Shown in pieces: positions 3,161 through 9,819 of a stretch of DNA of 10,345 nt. The position numbers were made by a program, and so were the translations under genes. The notes below the pieces were generated by a model. The model was not told the origin of the DNA, searched no databases, and saw only the letters and a list, made by a program, of their open reading frames with translations. This stretch comes from Hyphomicrobiales bacterium (GTDB lineage Bacteria; Pseudomonadota; Alphaproteobacteria; Rhizobiales; Aestuariivirgaceae): contig JALSNA010000296.1 of NCBI GenBank assembly GCA_026987255.1, forward strand, positions 1 through 10,345, read 5' to 3'. Within the stretch, counting starts at the first letter, position 1; every line of letters begins with the position of its first letter.

Positions 3161-4629
3161 TGAACATGGCCCGCCGCCCCCGGCCGGAGAAATCCGCAGC
3201 CAAGGACACGGAGCGAAAAGCCCGGCGCGGCAAGAGCGCCAAGGGCGGGCGCGCCATCCCCTCCGGGCTGGCGGCGCGGCAGGTGGCGGCGGCCCTGGTG
3301 CGGCGCATCCTGCACGAGGGAACACCATTGGGCGAGGCGCTGGCGCGCGAAAGCGGCGCTCTTGAAGCCTTGAGCGCGCCGGACCGGGCGCTGGCGCAGA
3401 ACATCGCGCGCACCACCTTGCGCCGCAGCGGACAGCTGGACGAGGCCATCGGCCGCTTCGTGAAGAAACCCCTGGCGAAAAGGGCCGCCCTTGCGCGCGC
3501 CATCTTGCGCATCGGCGCCGCCCAGGTGCTGTTCATGCGCATCCCGGCCCACGCCGCCATCGACACCGCCGTGCGCCTTGCCAAGGCCGATGCCGCCGCC
3601 CGCCCGCTTGCCGGATTGATCAATGCCGTGCTGCGCAACATCTCCCGGCAGTCTGACGGCATTCTGAAGTCCCAGGATGCCTTCGCCTGCAACATTCCCG
3701 CTTGGCTGCGCCGCAACTGGATCGCCGCATATGGCGAGCACACGGCCCGGCGCATCGCATCCTCCCTGCTCAAGGAGCCCGCCCTCGATGTCACGGTCAA
3801 GGACCCCGCCCAGGCCGCCCGGTGGGCCAAGGCCCTGGATGCCCATGTTCTGCCCACCGGCAGCTTGCGGCTGGACAGGGGCGGGCGCGCCATCCCCTCC
3901 CTGCCCGGTTTTGCGCAAGGGGCCTGGTGGGCCCAGGATGCGGCCGCCGCCCTGCCGGTGCGGCTGCTGGGCGATATCGCGGGCAAAAGGGTGCTCGATA
4001 TGTGCGCCGCACCGGGCGGCAAGACGGCGCAACTGGCCGCCGCCGGGGCCCATGTCACCGCCCTGGACATGTCCGCAAGGCGCCTTGAGCGGCTGCGCGA
4101 GAACCTCGCCAGGCTGAATCTGGAGGCGGACATCGTATGTGCCGATGCCCTGACATGGCAACCGGAAACGCCCTTCGACGCCATCGTGCTCGATGCGCCC
4201 TGCACCGCCACCGGCACCGCGCGGCGCCACCCGGAGGTCTTGCATTTGAAAACCCCTGGGCAGATGACGCAGCTGATGGCGTTGCAAGGAGCCATGCTGG
4301 AGCGGGCCCTGGGCATGCTCCAGCCGGGCGGAAAGCTCATCTATTGCGTGTGCTCCCTGCAGCCGCAGGAGGGCGAAATGCGCATCGCGCAAGTCTTGCA
4401 AGACCATGCAGACCAGGTAAGGCGCCTGCCCATTGCCGCGCAAGAGCTGGCCGGGCAGGCACAGATGATCACCCCGCAAGGCGATCTGCGCACCCTGCCC
4501 TGCATGGCCATCGGCGAGGAGACCGGCCTCGATGGCTTTTTCGCCGCCCGCCTGACGCGCCTGCAAGGGCGGCTCGCGACCGCGCCATCCTGGAGCAGAC
4601 CGTTTCAGGACACGAAGCGCGCCCCATGA
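3160..4629 (+). CDS. rsmB: RsmB/NOP family 16S rRNA m5C methyltransferase
   Basis: A SAM-dependent rRNA cytosine-C5 methyltransferase of the RsmB (Fmu/Sun) family; the E. coli enzyme modifies C967 of 16S rRNA. Numbering from the chosen start (489 aa), a basic tail (1-35) precedes a NusB-like RNA-binding domain (about 38-165), then a linker and the Rossmann methyltransferase domain (about 250-489). Motif I is VLDMCAAPGGKTAQ from residue 278. Motif IV is DAPCTATGTARRHPE from 345, with Cys348. Motif VI is YCVCSLQPQEGE from 395, with the probable nucleophile Cys398. Both catalytic cysteines are therefore present. I chose ATG at 3160 because it overlaps the htpX stop (TGATG) and drops 15 residues that would lie inside htpX. 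ATG 3166 is an alternative, and the frame is open back to 3115. An exact 22-bp repeat (3243-3264 and 3879-3900) encodes GGRAIPS in both places. Coupling to htpX is recalled as common in alphaproteobacteria. Confidence 0.93.
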   Translation: MNMARRPRPEKSAAKDTERKARRGKSAKGGRAIPSGLAARQVAAALVRRILHEGTPLGEALARESGALEALSAPDRALAQNIARTTLRRSGQLDEAIGRFVKKPLAKRAALARAILRIGAAQVLFMRIPAHAAIDTAVRLAKADAAARPLAGLINAVLRNISRQSDGILKSQDAFACNIPAWLRRNWIAAYGEHTARRIASSLLKEPALDVTVKDPAQAARWAKALDAHVLPTGSLRLDRGGRAIPSLPGFAQGAWWAQDAAAALPVRLLGDIAGKRVLDMCAAPGGKTAQLAAAGAHVTALDMSARRLERLRENLARLNLEADIVCADALTWQPETPFDAIVLDAPCTATGTARRHPEVLHLKTPGQMTQLMALQGAMLERALGMLQPGGKLIYCVCSLQPQEGEMRIAQVLQDHADQVRRLPIAAQELAGQAQMITPQGDLRTLPCMAIGEETGLDGFFAARLTRLQGRLATAPSWSRPFQDTKRAP

Positions 4630-4760
4630 CGGTGCTGGGCGACGGCATTTCGGGGTGGCGCAGCGAGAGGCGGAATCAACGAGATATTCAAGTAAAACAT
4701 GTCCCGGTTTGTGCCTCAGACGCTTGCATAATGCATTTTTTTGAAAATTTCGTGTTTTTG

Positions 4761-4799
4761 TTAACCTTCTGGTAATCATGTTTGCGTCAATATGGTTAA
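4761..4799. promoter_or_regulatory. CtrA-like TTAA motifs upstream of the small RNA and rcdA
   Basis: TTAA-CCTTCTG-GTAA (4761-4775) is one base from the CtrA consensus TTAA-N7-TTAA. ATGGTTAA (4792-4799) is exactly the reverse complement of the TTAACCAT half-site. The motifs straddle the likely promoter of the small RNA at about 4801. A weak sigma-70-like pair, CTTCTG (4766-4771) and CAATAT (4788-4793) with a 16-nt spacer, would start transcription near 4800. In Caulobacter, rcdA is part of the CtrA circuit, so the setting is suggestive. Short AT-rich motifs also occur by chance in such regions. Confidence 0.4.
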
Positions 4800-4800
4800 C

Positions 4801-4901
4801 GTAATCCAGACATCTGGATTCCTCCCGAGTGGCTCCTGTCCACTCTGTTTGACGCCTCCTAAAATGACTTCGAGCCGCGCTTTTCGTGCGGCTCTTTTTT
4901 T
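4801..4901 (+). ncRNA. Candidate small RNA of suhB/MmgR (alpha-r8) type
   Basis: About 100 nt with three hairpins. The first is 4803-4809 with 4814-4820 (AATCCAG / CTGGATT). The second is 4827-4832 with 4840-4845 (GAGTGG / CCACTC, loop CTCCTGT). The third is a terminator (4872-4894) with a seven-T tail. Single-stranded stretches carry TTCCTCCC (4819-4826) before the second hairpin and TGTTTGACGCCTCCTAAAA (4846-4864) after it. From memory, the pattern TTCCTCCC, hairpin, TTTGACGCCTCC, GC-rich terminator is that of the Rfam suhB family. This includes Sinorhizobium MmgR, which affects polyhydroxybutyrate granule formation. The repeated CCUCC motifs can pair with Shine-Dalgarno sequences, so it likely acts on mRNAs in trans. 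The 5' end near 4801 is inferred. No ORF with a ribosome site was found here. Confidence 0.7.
4872..4901 (+). terminator. Strong Rho-independent terminator of the small RNA
   Basis: GAGCCGC (4872-4878) pairs perfectly with GCGGCTC (4888-4894). Two inner pairs (4879/4887 as G-U, 4880/4886) leave a TTTTC loop, and seven T residues follow (4895-4901). It ends the small RNA and should also separate rcdA from the htpX-rsmB transcript upstream. Confidence 0.9.
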
Positions 4902-5021
4902 GTCTGGCCCGATGCTTGCAGATGGCTCTGCGTGACATCGCCGCGCTGGCTCATATTGACCTGAGCCTTTGCGCATATCATCATGATTGAAAATTCCGGG
5001 GTGTAAAGGAAGGGTTGGACT
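4902..5021 (+). promoter_or_regulatory. Leader and promoter region of rcdA
   Basis: Because a strong terminator ends at 4901, rcdA probably has its own promoter in these 120 bp. TTGACC (4956-4961) is a good -35. The best -10 candidates are TATCAT (4976-4981, spacer 14, short) and CATCAT (4979-4984, spacer 17, weaker match), so the exact promoter is unsettled. AAGGAAGGG (5006-5014), 7 nt before the ATG, is a strong ribosome binding site. No TTAA-type CtrA site is seen in this stretch. Confidence 0.45.
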
Positions 5022-5549
5022 ATGACGCATCAGGGACAGGCCGGACAGGGAGAGGGTGAAAATCTGGTGGACTTCATGACCCGGTTCACCGGGTCACAGC
5101 AGTTCAACCGGGTATTCCAGGAAGGCATGAGCCTGGTCGAGGAGACAGCCGACTATCTCGATGGCCCCGGCCGCGCCGAGGCCCGCGAACTGCCGCGTCC
5201 GGCGGCCCTGGCCTATGCCAGCGAGAGCATGCGCCTGACCACCCGGCTGATGCAGCTGGCCTCCTGGCTTTTGCTGCAAAGGGCCATCAGCAGCGGCGAG
5301 ATCTCTGCTGGCAGCGCCGCCGAAGAACAGGAGCGCATCAACCTGGAGGAAGCAGGCCTAGGCAGCGATGGGCCGCACCACGAGAACCTGCCCCATGGCC
5401 TGCTGGATCTCATTGCCCGCTCGCGCCTTTTGCATGCCCGCATCGTCAAGCTCGACGCCAGACTGAAGGCCCGCGCAACCCCACCGGCCCACAACCCCGT
5501 GGCCAGCCATCTGGACATGCTCAGCCAGGCTTTCGGCAACAAGCGTTAG
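5022..5549 (+). CDS. rcdA: RcdA, regulator of CtrA degradation (DUF1465)
   Basis: A 175-residue cytoplasmic, mostly helical protein. In Caulobacter RcdA is a ClpXP adaptor that, with CpdR and PopA, delivers CtrA for degradation at the G1-S transition. Family signatures are FQEGMSLVEETADYLDGPGR (32-51) followed by LAYASESMRLTTRLMQLASW (62-81) and LLLQRAISSGE. The later segment LPHGLLDLIARSRLLHARIV (123-142) is the conserved third helix. The C-terminal 30 residues are probably flexible, as known for RcdA tails. The start is supported by AAGGAAGGG seven bases upstream. It stands alone: a strong terminator and small RNA lie upstream, and a convergent puuB follows 99 bp downstream. The family is essentially alphaproteobacterial. 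It implies that the organism has CtrA-type cell-cycle control, although the precise adaptor role varies between species. Confidence 0.93.
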   Translation: MTHQGQAGQGEGENLVDFMTRFTGSQQFNRVFQEGMSLVEETADYLDGPGRAEARELPRPAALAYASESMRLTTRLMQLASWLLLQRAISSGEISAGSAAEEQERINLEEAGLGSDGPHHENLPHGLLDLIARSRLLHARIVKLDARLKARATPPAHNPVASHLDMLSQAFGNKR

Positions 5550-5648: not shown

Positions 5649-6941
5649 TCAGCCCAGCAGGTCGCGGGCGCGGTAATAGAGCATCCCCAGGGTATGCGCC
5701 GGGCGCGCCAGAACACCGCCGGGGAAGGGCATGTGGGGGATGCGGGCAAAGAGCTCGAAACGCTCGTCCGTTCCCAGGATGCTGCCTGCCATGAGCTTGC
5801 CCATCATGCCGGAAAGCGCCACCCCGTGGCCGGAATAGCCCTGGGCATGCCAGATATTGCCCGCCTCGCCCGTGATCCCGGCATCGGGCAGGCGGTTGAA
5901 GGTAATGCCGATATGCCCGCCCCAGGCATGCTCGATGGCCACATCGGCCAGTTGCGGATAGACCTTGAGCATGCGCGGACGCATGTAGGCGGCCAGATTC
6001 TGTGGATGCCAGCCGGAATAGGAGCACCGCCCGCCGAACAGCAGCCGGTGATCGGCGGAAAGGCGGAAATAGTCGACCACGAAGTTTTCATCCGCCACCG
6101 CCTCGTCATGGCGGATCAGTTCGCGGGCGCGCTCTTTGCCCAGCGGCTCGGTGGCGATGATATAGCTGGCCACCGGCATGATGCGCCGCGAAATGGGCGG
6201 ATAAAGCCCATCGATATAGGCATTTGTGGCAAGGATCAGCCTGTCCGCCGTCAGCGTGCCCGCATCGCAGCGCAGGCGGATTTTCTTCCCCTGCTCCAGG
6301 GCCCGCACCGGAGTGTGGATGAAGATCCGCGCTCCCTCTTTCAGCGCCGCCGCCGCCAGGCCGTGAACATATTTCAGCGGATGCAGATGCCCCGCGCCCG
6401 GATCGCGCAGACCGCCGTGATAGATGCGCGTGCCCAGATAATCGCTCTCCAGCCTCTCTTTCGGCAACAGTTCACAGCCGCCATAGCCGAAACTTTCCAG
6501 CTCATCGATATAGGCCTTGAGCTCATCCATGTGGGCAGGCTTGTTGGCGCAGATGAGGTATCCCCACTTGATCTCGCAATCGAAACCGTAAGCCTCGGCG
6601 CGCTGCGTGATCAGCCTCTTGCCCTCCTCGGAAATGTCGAAGGCCGCTTGCGCCCCCTCCCGGCCGAGGGCGGAGACGAACTTCGCCATGCCGGGCGAAT
6701 AGCTGGTGCAGATCTGCCCGCCGGTGCGCCCCGAGGCCCCCCAGCCCAGCGGCCCGGCCTCCACCACGGCGGTCCTGACCCCCGCCGCGGCCAGTTCGAT
6801 GGCCGCCGAAAGACCGGTGAAACCCGCCCCGATGATGGCCACGTCCACATCCATATCGGTGGAAAGCTGCCCGCAGCGGGGAGGATCGCCCGCCGAGGCG
6901 CGGTAATAGGTCAGAGCATCGAGAACACCGAGTTTGCGCAT
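5649..6941 (-). CDS. puuB: Gamma-glutamylputrescine oxidase-like FAD oxidoreductase (PuuB)
   Basis: A 430-residue FAD-dependent amine oxidase of the DAO (glycine oxidase-like) superfamily. PuuB oxidises gamma-glutamylputrescine to gamma-glutamyl-aminobutyraldehyde with release of ammonia and H2O2. The FAD-binding dinucleotide motif is IIGAGFTGLSAA (36-47), with the ribose-binding acid Glu61 in VVEAG. GASGRTGGQ (68-76) matches the GASGRNGGQ segment of E. coli PuuB. The C-terminal HAQGYSGHGVALSG flavin segment also matches E. coli MQGYSGHGV, as do PFPGG and the last residues Y-x-x-RDLLG. Length is about the same as E. coli PuuB (426). An N-terminal TYYRASAG piece corresponds to the family's SYYAASA start. 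It begins 13 bp after the puuA stop on the same strand, with AAGGGGATGCAGG upstream, so the two form an operon. Related oxidases of other gamma-glutamyl amines cannot be excluded. Confidence 0.88.
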   Translation of the reverse strand: MRKLGVLDALTYYRASAGDPPRCGQLSTDMDVDVAIIGAGFTGLSAAIELAAAGVRTAVVEAGPLGWGASGRTGGQICTSYSPGMAKFVSALGREGAQAAFDISEEGKRLITQRAEAYGFDCEIKWGYLICANKPAHMDELKAYIDELESFGYGGCELLPKERLESDYLGTRIYHGGLRDPGAGHLHPLKYVHGLAAAALKEGARIFIHTPVRALEQGKKIRLRCDAGTLTADRLILATNAYIDGLYPPISRRIMPVASYIIATEPLGKERARELIRHDEAVADENFVVDYFRLSADHRLLFGGRCSYSGWHPQNLAAYMRPRMLKVYPQLADVAIEHAWGGHIGITFNRLPDAGITGEAGNIWHAQGYSGHGVALSGMMGKLMAGSILGTDERFELFARIPHMPFPGGVLARPAHTLGMLYYRARDLLG

Positions 6942-6954
6942 CCTGCATCCCCTT

Positions 6955-8355
6955 TCAGGCGGTTGTCAGATACCAGTCGTAATCCAGTTGCGGAATGGTG
7001 AAATGGTGCTCCTGCAGCTCCTGCCAGCGGGCGGCCAGATAGGCGCGCCTCCATTCGGCATCGAAGTAGCCCCCTAAGATGCCGCCGCCGGCAAAGGCCT
7101 TCAAGGCTTCCGGCCAGAACAGCGGCAAGGGCGCTCCGCCCTGTTCATAGCCATCTCCCGCCACCGGCGCGGGCGGCTCCAGTTCATGAACCAGCCCGTG
7201 ATGAATGCCGGCCAGCACCGCCGCCGCCACCAGATAGGGCGAGGCATCGGCGCCCGCCACCCGGTGCTCGATGCGCGTATCGGCGTCATCCCCGCCGGGA
7301 ATGCGGATGGGCAAGGTGCGGTTGTCTCCGCCCCAGATGGCCGAAACCGGCGCATAGGTGCCGGGCCGCAGGCGGCGGTAGGAATTGGCATTGGGAGCGA
7401 AAATGGCCATGCCCTCGCCCATGGTGGCCACCAGCCCGGCAATGGCCTGTTTCATGCGCGCTGAAATGGCCCGGCCGATGCGCCCATCCTGATCCTGCCC
7501 GGAAAAAATGTTGGCCCCCGCCTCGTCCACCAGCGAGACATGCACATGCAGCCCGTTTCCGGCCCGCTCGGCGAAGGGCTTGGCCATGAAGGTGGCGATG
7601 GCCCCGTGGCGCAGGGCGCAGGCCTTGATGGCGCGCTTGAGCAAGACCGCCTGGTCGCAGGCAGCCAGGGCATCCGCGCGATGCAGCAGGTTGATCTCGT
7701 ATTGACCGGGGCCATATTCGCTCACCGCCGTTTCCGCATCCAGCCCCTGGGCGGCACAGGTTTGCGCGATATCGGCAAAAAGGGCGGAAAACTCGCCCAG
7801 ATCGTCCAGTCCATAGACATTGACCGTGCCCGGCCTGCGTCCGGAAAGCGGCAGCCGCGCAGGCTCTATCCTGCCTTCGCGCATGGCCTTTGCATCGATG
7901 AGATGAAACTCCAGCTCGATGGCCATGACGGCCCGCAGCCCCAGCTTGTCCAGCCTGTCCATGACGCAAGCCAGCACATGGCGCGGATCGGCGAAATGGG
8001 GCCGCCCTGCGGCATCAGCCATGGAGGCCAGCACCTGCCCGGCGCTTTCGGCCGCCCAGGGCACGGGAGCCAGGGAACCGGGCACGGCATGGCAGAAGAA
8101 ATCCGGATCGCCGTCGGCCCCGCCATATTCCAGCCCGTCAATATTGCGCCCGGTGGCATCCAGCAGGTAGTTGGAGCCGGGCAGGCGCACCCCTTCCGCA
8201 TCCTCGCCGAAGAGCTTGCGCGCCGCCTTGGGCGACAGCCGCTTGCCGCGCAGCTGGCCGCTCATGTCCGGCACCATGAGCTCGATGTAGGTGCAGCCGG
8301 GATGCTCCCGGATGAAGCGCTCCAGTTCATCCATGCCGGCGTAAAAAGTGGTCAT
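6955..8355 (-). CDS. puuA: Gamma-glutamylputrescine synthetase (PuuA/PauA-type glutamine synthetase family)
   Basis: A 466-residue ATP-dependent ligase of the glutamine synthetase fold that joins glutamate to putrescine (or another polyamine). The N-terminal beta-grasp region has IELMVPDMSGQLRGKRL (24-40), as in PuuA and Pseudomonas PauA proteins. Catalytic-domain residues are all present: ELE (147-149), Glu213 and Glu220 in SEYGPGQYE, His270 in NGLHVHVSL, NSYRRL (324-329) and RIEHR (361-365). The VAGADASPYLVAAAVLAGI stretch and the LDYDWYL ending are close to PauA-type enzymes. The ATG at 8355 was chosen because homology starts there. Upstream the frame stays open to 9834, but only antisense to the divergent ligase gene. 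A CAGGGGG tract lies about 14 nt upstream, and ATG eight codons in (MDELERF) is an alternative. It is first in an operon with puuB. It could prefer spermidine, cadaverine or a diamine analogue instead of putrescine. Confidence 0.86.
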   Translation of the reverse strand: MTTFYAGMDELERFIREHPGCTYIELMVPDMSGQLRGKRLSPKAARKLFGEDAEGVRLPGSNYLLDATGRNIDGLEYGGADGDPDFFCHAVPGSLAPVPWAAESAGQVLASMADAAGRPHFADPRHVLACVMDRLDKLGLRAVMAIELEFHLIDAKAMREGRIEPARLPLSGRRPGTVNVYGLDDLGEFSALFADIAQTCAAQGLDAETAVSEYGPGQYEINLLHRADALAACDQAVLLKRAIKACALRHGAIATFMAKPFAERAGNGLHVHVSLVDEAGANIFSGQDQDGRIGRAISARMKQAIAGLVATMGEGMAIFAPNANSYRRLRPGTYAPVSAIWGGDNRTLPIRIPGGDDADTRIEHRVAGADASPYLVAAAVLAGIHHGLVHELEPPAPVAGDGYEQGGAPLPLFWPEALKAFAGGGILGGYFDAEWRRAYLAARWQELQEHHFTIPQLDYDWYLTTA

Positions 8356-8469
8356 GTGGCCTGCCGCCCCCTGGTTCTTGCGCCCCCTGGGCAAAAAATG
8401 CGATACATCCGGGCATCTTAGAACCAATCGCCGCCATGGTGAAGCGGCCAAAAGACGAAAAGAGGCTCC
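8356..8469. promoter_or_regulatory. Shared divergent promoter region of the polyamine locus
   Basis: This 114-bp gap between puuA (minus) and the second ligase (plus) must hold promoters for both operons. It contains a direct repeat CGCCCCCTGG (8365-8374 and 8381-8390, 16-bp period) and a 7-bp inverted repeat TGGTTCT / AGAACCA (8372-8378 and 8420-8426). The first direct repeat overlaps the G-rich tract upstream of puuA. These are operator candidates only. No regulator gene is in the window and no clear -35/-10 pair stands out. Confidence 0.4.
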
Positions 8470-9819
8470 GTGCCCGATACAAAACCCAAGGACTGGATCG
8501 CCAGCCGCGGCATCGACGAGGTGGAATGCCTGGTGCCCGACATGGCCGGCGTGCCGCGCGGCAAGATCCTGCCGGCGCAGAAATTCCTCAAGGGCATGCA
8601 CAACGGCACCTTGCGCATCCCCGAGGAGCTGTTCATTCTCACCGTCACCGGGCGCTACTGGACGGACGCCACGACCACCAATGACGCCTCCATCGACATC
8701 AGGCTCATCCCCCAGATGGATACCCTGCGCCCCGTGCCCTGGCACGACAACCCCACCGCGGAGGTCATCTGCGATACCGCCTATGCCGATGGCGCGGTGG
8801 TGGACATCGCCCCGCGCGCCGTTCTCAAGAGGGTGCTGGCCGAATACGGCAAGCGCAACCTTGCGCCCGTCATCGCCCCGGAGCTGGAGTTCTATCTGGT
8901 CAAGCGCAACCTCGATCCGGATTATCCCCTGGAGCCCGCCGTCGGCCGCACCGGCCGCCAGGAGGCCTCCGGCCAGGCCTACGGGATCGACGCCGCCAAC
9001 GACTTCGACGACGTGGTGGAGGACATCTACGACTGGTGCGAGGCACAAGGGGTGGACATCGACACCATCTCCCACGAATCGGGCCCGGCGCAACTGGAGA
9101 TCAACTTCAACCACGGCGACCCGCTGGATCTGGCCGACCAGGTCTTCCTGTTCAAGCGCACGGTGCGCCAGGCGGCCCTCAAGCACGGCATCTACGCCAC
9201 CTTCATGGCCAAGCCGCACCAGGACGAGCCGGGCTCGGCCATGCACATTCACCAATCGGTGCTGGACAGGGAGACGGGCAAGAACATCTTCGTCACCGCG
9301 CGCGGGCGCTTTTCGGCCAGGTTCCTGCACTTCATCGGCGGCCTGCAACGCTACATGGGCGCGGCCATGCCCTTCTATGCCCCCAATGTCAATTCCTACC
9401 GCCGCCTGGTGCCCCATTCCGACGCCCCCACCACCACCCACTGGGGGGTGGACAACCGCACCGCGCCGCTGCGCGCGCCCATTTCCGCGCCGCAGAACAC
9501 CCGCATCGAGAACCGCGTGCCGGGCGCCGACGCCAACCCCTATCTGGCCATCGCCGCCTCCCTGGCCTGCGGCCTGCTGGGCATGAAGGAGCGCATCCGG
9601 CCCTCCGACCCCATCGAGGGCTCCGCCTACCGCTATGTGCACACCCTGCCGCTGACCATGGAGGAGGCCCTGGGCAAGCTGCATTACGCCAGGCCCCTGA
9701 AACAGCTCCTCGGCGAGCGCTTCGTGGAAACCCATGCGGGCGTCAAGGAGGCCGAAATGGAGCAATGGCGGCGCGTCATCTCCTCCTGGGAGCGCGAACA
9801 TTTGCTTCTCAATGTCTGA
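8470..9819 (+). CDS. Second glutamine-synthetase-family gamma-glutamyl-amine ligase
   Basis: A 449-residue protein of the same fold as PuuA but of a clearly different subgroup. The N-terminal part reads VECLVPDMAGVPRGKILPAQ (18-37) and is followed by segments unlike its neighbour. The active site is complete: ELE (138-140), Glu203 and Glu210 in HESGPAQLE, His259/His261 in SAMHIHQSV, NSYRRL (308-313) and RIENR (345-349). The usual adenylylation tyrosine segment of true GlnA was not seen, so it is unlikely to be the housekeeping enzyme. The start is GTG 8470 with AGAGG at 8461-8465; an in-frame TGA at 8440 and the lack of any other start codon leave little choice. It leads an operon with agmatinase (13-bp gap). 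It is probably a gamma-glutamyl-polyamine or related amine ligase; the substrate cannot be told from sequence. Confidence 0.85.
   Translation: MPDTKPKDWIASRGIDEVECLVPDMAGVPRGKILPAQKFLKGMHNGTLRIPEELFILTVTGRYWTDATTTNDASIDIRLIPQMDTLRPVPWHDNPTAEVICDTAYADGAVVDIAPRAVLKRVLAEYGKRNLAPVIAPELEFYLVKRNLDPDYPLEPAVGRTGRQEASGQAYGIDAANDFDDVVEDIYDWCEAQGVDIDTISHESGPAQLEINFNHGDPLDLADQVFLFKRTVRQAALKHGIYATFMAKPHQDEPGSAMHIHQSVLDRETGKNIFVTARGRFSARFLHFIGGLQRYMGAAMPFYAPNVNSYRRLVPHSDAPTTTHWGVDNRTAPLRAPISAPQNTRIENRVPGADANPYLAIAASLACGLLGMKERIRPSDPIEGSAYRYVHTLPLTMEEALGKLHYARPLKQLLGERFVETHAGVKEAEMEQWRRVISSWEREHLLLNV

Follow-up and report, generated by a model that had tools for sequence, protein, structure and literature searches.

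What lies between rsmB and rcdA in this genome? The window that we analysed is a 10,345-nt stretch of DNA from a Hyphomicrobiales bacterium, and a part of it that holds no open reading frame had been read in a first-pass annotation as a small RNA (sRNA) of the suhB/MmgR family, set between rsmB and rcdA. The locus raises the question of what this RNA is, what drives it, and whether it is a gene in its own right or a part of rcdA.

Results

The two flanking genes had been named correctly. The upstream neighbour is RsmB/F (PF01189 and NusB domains). The downstream neighbour (5022..5549, plus strand) encodes a DUF1465 protein (PF07323, E 1.1e-53); among solved structures it matches RcdA alone (PDB 3ctw, E 1.2e-38). 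Farther along, at 5649-9819, the window carries genes for an FAD-dependent oxidoreductase (PF01266) and a glutamine synthetase (PF00120), with a second glutamine-synthetase-like frame nearby on the minus strand (by eye); this is perhaps a catabolic cluster of the gamma-glutamyl-polyamine type.

The element between rsmB and rcdA is an sRNA gene, as judged by structure and conservation. The sequence from 4801 to 4901 (101 nt) folds at -35.4 kcal/mol, compared with -19.7 ± 2.8 for 200 dinucleotide shuffles (z = -5.5), none of which folds as well. All three hairpins described by the first-pass annotation are present on the plus strand: hairpin 1 at 4803-4820 (AATCCAG and CTGGATT around an ACAT loop), hairpin 2 at 4827-4845 (GAGTGG paired with CCACTC, and CUCC in the loop) and hairpin 3 at 4872-4894, followed by the seven-T tail that it had also described (4895-4901). 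Hairpin 3, with its GAGCCGCGC stem, and the tail make up an intrinsic terminator (4872..4901, plus strand) that is seen both in the fold and in a terminator scan, and that ends about 120 nt before rcdA. It was the single site returned by that scan for 4600-5100, a count that is weak proof by itself because shuffles of the region already average 0.6.

The family, however, is not the one first proposed. At Rfam gathering thresholds the sole match in the whole window is BjrC1505 (RF02356), which covers 4760-4901 with model positions 1-140 of 140 and scores 63.5 bits against a cut-off of 50 (E 2.3e-10). A genome-wide search with RF02356 reported one BjrC1505 match, at this rcdA-adjacent locus. By contrast, the suhB (mmgR) model RF00519, which the first-pass annotation had suggested running, gave 26.2 bits at 4831-4908 under relaxed thresholds, below its cut-off of 41 (E 0.0015 in a 301-base search). 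The genome's own suhB/MmgR gene is on another contig (G000:C180:3922-4004), where it scores 63.2 bits (one match; 150 of 306 candidates scored). The suhB/MmgR label fails because RF00519 stays below threshold, RF02356 is over its cut-off and suhB is found at another locus. That the locus is a suhB/MmgR (alpha-r8) sRNA after all is highly improbable, for all that it shares a 3' module with that family and draws a sub-threshold match. Indeed, the shared module accounts for the likeness: comparison with the genome's suhB shows that CCUCC, GACUU and a GCCGC terminator stem are common to both families, for which a common origin is possible. Thus a covariance hit exists and the sRNA itself is upheld, but under another family name: the window locus is a new member of Rfam BjrC1505, wrongly named suhB earlier. 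The family is said to go back to experimental evidence of expression as an sRNA.

How widespread is this RNA? RF02356 matched 53 of the 60 genomes in our set of relatives (50 over cut-off) and 40 of 385 genomes across the class (17 over cut-off), this genome being included in both counts, and 0 of 14 control genomes, Caulobacter vibrioides among them. We examined 96 of the 97 matches (G210:C15:29-175, at a contig end, was left out); those below 40 bits include some that on reading are doubtful, such as L093 (tRNA-like) and L094 (suhB-like). The RF02356 match takes in the promoter as well as the transcript, and we also used a transcript-only model, R2, made from 79 aligned sequences with the promoter excluded and the window included. 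R2 finds the window at 4799-4901 (E 6.5e-18, the window itself being one of its 79 sequences), and we take these positions on the plus strand as the putative ends of the transcript. Within the order it finds a match in 346 of 397 genomes. Across the class it matches 117 of 385 genomes, unsorted, and many of the weak matches there may be suhB-like because the 3' module is common to both families. Moreover, the family extends past the present Rfam threshold, because in an Rfam scan of ten named loci six that bear the RNA (from Rhizobium, Agrobacterium, Sinorhizobium, Neorhizobium, Shinella and Hoeflea) scored under every cut-off. RcsR1 was considered and rejected as a name for the RNA in Rhizobiaceae: ten loci scanned gave no RF02552 match at cut-off. 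RcsR1 is located at the trpL attenuator (PMC7143759, in the text available).

All three stems covary. Among the 79 sequences, 18 of the 22 pairs show changes on both sides, including 7 of 7 in hairpin 1 and 6 of 6 in hairpin 2, so that the conserved stem pairs expected among relatives by the first-pass annotation are there. Double changes occupy 143 cells, against 41.5 ± 5.3 in shuffles, and on none of five measures of covariation did any of 500 shuffles reach the observed value. The proportion of paired cells is 90.7% (93.8% in helix 3) and drops to 41.7% or 48.9% after a shift of the partners by one column. On alignment A1, RNAalifold recovered the terminator alone and model R1 was set aside; the three-hairpin structure of R2 was named by hand from these same sequences, so the covariation test rests on a structure taken from the sequences tested. 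Related loci are not independent events, here or in the counts that follow.

The RNA is closely linked to rcdA. An RcdA frame lies downstream on the same strand in 69 of the 96 RF02356 loci: 57 of 67 over the cut-off, 9 of 15 at 40-50 bits and 3 of 14 below 40. The highest-scoring RF02356 member that we found (L003, 125.9 bits) is also upstream of rcdA. Of 59 loci that R2 found outside its own alignment, all have RcdA downstream in the same orientation, with 140-535 nt between the sRNA and the start of RcdA as aligned; this set was picked by hand, roughly one per genus with some genera several times, and weak members are under-represented in it because the picks came from the best R2 matches. 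Two further loci (L108 and L117) have RcdA downstream and the promoter box described below with one mismatch. Comparison of the region upstream of rcdA in related genomes, advised by the first-pass annotation, gave the same picture: starting from RcdA proteins in named genomes (the best 80 of 539 confirmed), we found the RNA directly upstream in 79 of 80. In the lone exception, L219, the sequence ahead of rcdA is just 123 nt long. Rhizobium leguminosarum, Agrobacterium, Sinorhizobium fredii, Shinella, Hoeflea, Brucella endophytica and Stappia are among the organisms in which rcdA has the RNA. Two tandem copies of the sRNA stand upstream of rcdA at L026/L086 (G378:C6) and at L027 (G210:C10). 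Literature on rcdA and sRNAs, at the level of search listings, holds no mention of "upstream of rcdA".

What would drive the sRNA? No feature upstream of the RNA is better conserved in relatives than a CtrA-type site, TTAA-N7-TTAA. The window has it at the -35 position as TTAACCTTCTGGTAA (4761..4775, plus strand), with one mismatch, and it is predicted to bind CtrA. A -10-like CAATAT follows at 4788..4793 (plus strand), placing a putative transcription start near 4797-4801. PMC3616915 gives the CtrA site as TAA-N7-TTAAC and looked for N7 alone, because CtrA sites with another spacing bound weakly. With at most one mismatch, the N7 box precedes the RNA in 87 of the 96 RF02356 loci, whereas other spacers from 2 to 13 give 6-24 and shuffles about 6. 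Because the RF02356 model overlaps the promoter region, we repeated the test with the transcript-only model. The box is present in 56 of 58 R2-found loci outside the R2 alignment (L133, the remaining one of the 59, has no upstream sequence), against 8-24 for other spacers from 2 to 13 and about 5 for shuffles; as for control regions, none of the 58 has the box at -200..-140, and 1 of 58 has it within the 60 nt that follow the terminator. With the 56 loci lined up by the box, a -10-like block rich in A/T appears about 12 nt downstream. Box and -10-like element keep a near-constant distance, as they would in a promoter that CtrA activates.

Model positions 1 to about 20 of RF02356 overlie this conserved box, and the paired 5' region of the Rfam model is therefore probably a DNA signal and not an RNA structure. 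A second GTTAAC half-site at 4796-4801, at the putative transcription start, may be an extra CtrA contact or a repression site; GGTTAACG or ATTAACG recurs ahead of the first hairpin in several BjrC1505-family relatives. A scan for the sigma-70 consensus found no promoter at the sRNA start, and one promoter-like site at 4956-4984 on the plus strand, between the sRNA and rcdA.

Is the RNA simply the beginning of the rcdA message? As a 5' leader or attenuator, it would be transcribed from the CtrA-type site on into rcdA, with the terminator as a regulated stop. The placement on the same strand directly upstream of rcdA, without exception in the R2-found set, speaks for this arrangement, as does the fact that CtrA control of rcdA has been described or predicted (PMC2877005 and PMC4433202). 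Nevertheless, we consider it unlikely, on several counts. In 27 of the 96 RF02356 loci RcdA is not next door, and 23 of these 27 keep the N7 box (0-10 of 27 for six other spacers), as do 64 of the 69 loci with RcdA next door; the 27 include four weak matches (30.6-31.7 bits) that are also without the box, and L020, where the contig runs on for only 165 nt downstream. It is because RNA and box persist without RcdA next door that we favour an sRNA gene of its own over an rcdA leader. The distance from sRNA to RcdA is not fixed. In addition, 77 of the 79 RNA-bearing named loci (L163-L242; mostly Rhizobiaceae by name) have a second, exact TTAA-N7-TTAA between terminator and rcdA, presumably rcdA's own, and in the window the promoter-like site at 4956-4984 occupies the same interval. 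The terminator stem, finally, is paired almost throughout. Of the same 79 named loci, nearly all from Rhizobiaceae to judge by their names, 75 have a box before the RNA. Few loci of the R2-found set have the second box (9 of 59, against 3-6 for four other spacers). Among 14 RcdA-less loci looked at, a quinone-oxidoreductase-like gene lies divergently upstream in five (L008, L010, L012, L036 and L092; by reading translations).

A conserved CtrA-type site could also be there chiefly for CtrA to bind or repress, or to serve rcdA, with the sRNA expressed by other means. ChIP-seq in S. meliloti showed CtrA at the rcdA promoter region, but rcdA was unresponsive to CtrA depletion (PMC4433202), an observation that fits this alternative in that binding need not mean activation. 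Against it stands the box itself, which keeps a near-constant distance to the -10-like element and to the RNA, and we regard the alternative as improbable. For rcdA of agrobacteria (atu3742), several transcription starts and a possible upstream CtrA site are described (PMC10469942), and the S. meliloti and agrobacterial results are both consistent with two adjacent promoters, one of them for the sRNA. The available parts of PMC4433202 and PMC10469942 speak of no sRNA at rcdA. A point against the CtrA reading comes from Hyphomonas neptunium, in which rcdA is reported not to be regulated by CtrA (PMC7200025).

Does the organism possess CtrA? We found no ortholog in its assembly (529 contigs, 98.8% complete), in which the response regulator that comes closest shares 39% identity with the Caulobacter CtrA sequence used as query. 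The missing ctrA is likely a gap in the draft assembly, because all 10 other genomes of the genus have CtrA. These ten are among the 55 of 60 genomes in the set of relatives in which CtrA was found, three of them only in part. Also counting against CtrA as the driver, the RNA is present, and no CtrA was found, in G414 (91% complete), G428 (84%) and G435 (88%); G427 is without both.

The window RNA carries three CCUCC-type motifs, as the first-pass annotation had counted: TTCCTCCC in the linker (4819-4826, plus strand), CTCC in loop 2 and GCCTCC at 4854-4859. However, its proposal that they offer three mRNA-pairing sites describes a mostly local feature, because conservation is so uneven. Only the last motif (GACGCCUCC) is widespread: GACGCCTCC (4851..4859, plus strand), an anti-Shine-Dalgarno motif in the unpaired stretch before the terminator, occurs in 73 of the 79 aligned sequences, window included, and CCTCCCTGTT in 64, compared with 35 of 79 for the loop CTCC and 17 of 79 for the linker CTCC. 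On these counts one anti-Shine-Dalgarno site looks ancestral and the other two, including the extra anti-Shine-Dalgarno-like stretch of the linker, look local. After CCTCC, the window reads TAAAA where CTGTT is usual in BjrC1505. In the named set the pairing stretch is mostly CTCCCTGTT (77 of 79), with GACGCCTCC in 5.

Which messages might this motif address? One answer is feedback on CtrA turnover, in which the RNA would pair with the translation start of rcdA or of ctrA. Several observations lend it some colour: CAGGGA is found in 47 of 80 named rcdA upstream regions and ACAGGGA in 29 of 80, these being the complement of UCCCUG(U); GGAGGCGTC is present in one ctrA leader (G409); and CcnA and GspR are precedents for sRNAs acting on ctrA. 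The pairing energies tell against it. Across 133 loci, with start codons set by rule and some possibly wrong, native sRNA-rcdA pairs gave -16.65 and were no stronger than swapped pairs (-16.45 ± 0.19), 27 of 200 permutations being as strong. The native pairs do beat shuffled rcdA starts (-15.91 ± 0.27), because any Shine-Dalgarno would. For ctrA, 11 of 12 leaders were scored (one has no clear start), giving z from -2.8 to +1.4 and no common site. Such feedback is thus, in our judgement, quite improbable.

A wider search for the pattern CAGGGAGGCG-N0-9-ATG in 121 genomes gave a match in 100. Seven of 30 loci examined open a frame of at least 80 codons at the ATG, and no recurrent gene was apparent among these by eye. 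Neither the pairing energies nor this pattern search gave support for any target. The CCUCC motif could also be there for another purpose, for example chaperone binding.

Discussion

The reading that we favour, and hold to be probable, is that the locus is an independent, trans-acting BjrC1505 sRNA gene with a CtrA-driven promoter of its own, a terminator of its own and an anti-Shine-Dalgarno mode of action. Transcription would begin at this promoter, which has a full CtrA-type site as its -35 region, and end at the sRNA's own terminator, and the sRNA would accumulate in the cell cycle as active CtrA does. Lying between hairpin 2 and the terminator, the unpaired GACGCCUCC would pair with the Shine-Dalgarno regions of target mRNAs and block their translation, probably with the help of an RNA chaperone bound at the U-rich 3' end.

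More tentatively, and with somewhat less than even confidence, we suggest that BjrC1505 is an RNA arm of the CtrA circuit that spans nearly the whole order and has been overlooked. CtrA would turn on the sRNA and, at least where there is a second box, rcdA, so that proteolysis and translational repression would go in step in the same cell-cycle phase. If so, the CtrA binding reported "at the rcdA promoter" of S. meliloti would in part be binding at the sRNA's promoter. This offers a testable reading of the puzzle posed by that organism, in which CtrA is bound at the rcdA promoter and rcdA mRNA is unaffected (PMC4433202).

BjrC1505 is named in the literature that we searched, outside which most subscription papers lay, only in a single paper, among predicted RNAs of Herbaspirillum, with no function. 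What this analysis adds is its linkage to rcdA and a conserved CtrA-type promoter, which together make a place in the cell cycle likely for the family in most sampled genomes of the order. That an sRNA family belongs to the CtrA circuit is a hypothesis that can now be tested.

How does this RNA compare with known systems? It shares with the BjrC1505 family of RF02356 its hairpins, its motif and its terminator, in a full-length match over the cut-off. The suhB/MmgR/alpha-r8 RNAs (RF00519) and SisA-D of Caulobacter, which form a single family with MmgR according to the available text of PMC12559287, have the same module of CCUCC, GACUU and GCCGC terminator; they differ from the window sRNA in the 5' part, in the sub-threshold score and in the separate locus within the same genome.

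Other sRNAs act on the cell cycle in Sinorhizobium meliloti. EcpR1 acts on the mRNAs of dnaA and gcrA, but its locus differs, being downstream of divK-pleD. GspR acts on ctrA; it lies between SMc03844 and SMc03845, a location by which we rejected it as the identity of our RNA, and in the text available it has no known promoter signatures ahead of it. SmelC671/sm84 of S. meliloti, with ReC71 of R. etli, is a single-copy sRNA of 100 nt that has a terminator and whose relatives occur in Rhizobiaceae, Brucellaceae, Phyllobacteriaceae, Bradyrhizobiaceae and Methylobacteriaceae; the published table as available to us lists no promoter motif for it. Length, copy number and taxonomic spread match, and our guess is that SmelC671/sm84 is the S. 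meliloti copy of the BjrC1505 gene.

CcnA of Caulobacter crescentus is an ncRNA that has a predicted CtrA site in its promoter, a C-rich loop and a place in the cell-cycle circuit (PMC8959179). The likeness to BjrC1505 is one of description; the control genomes that RF02356 left unmatched include that of Caulobacter vibrioides.
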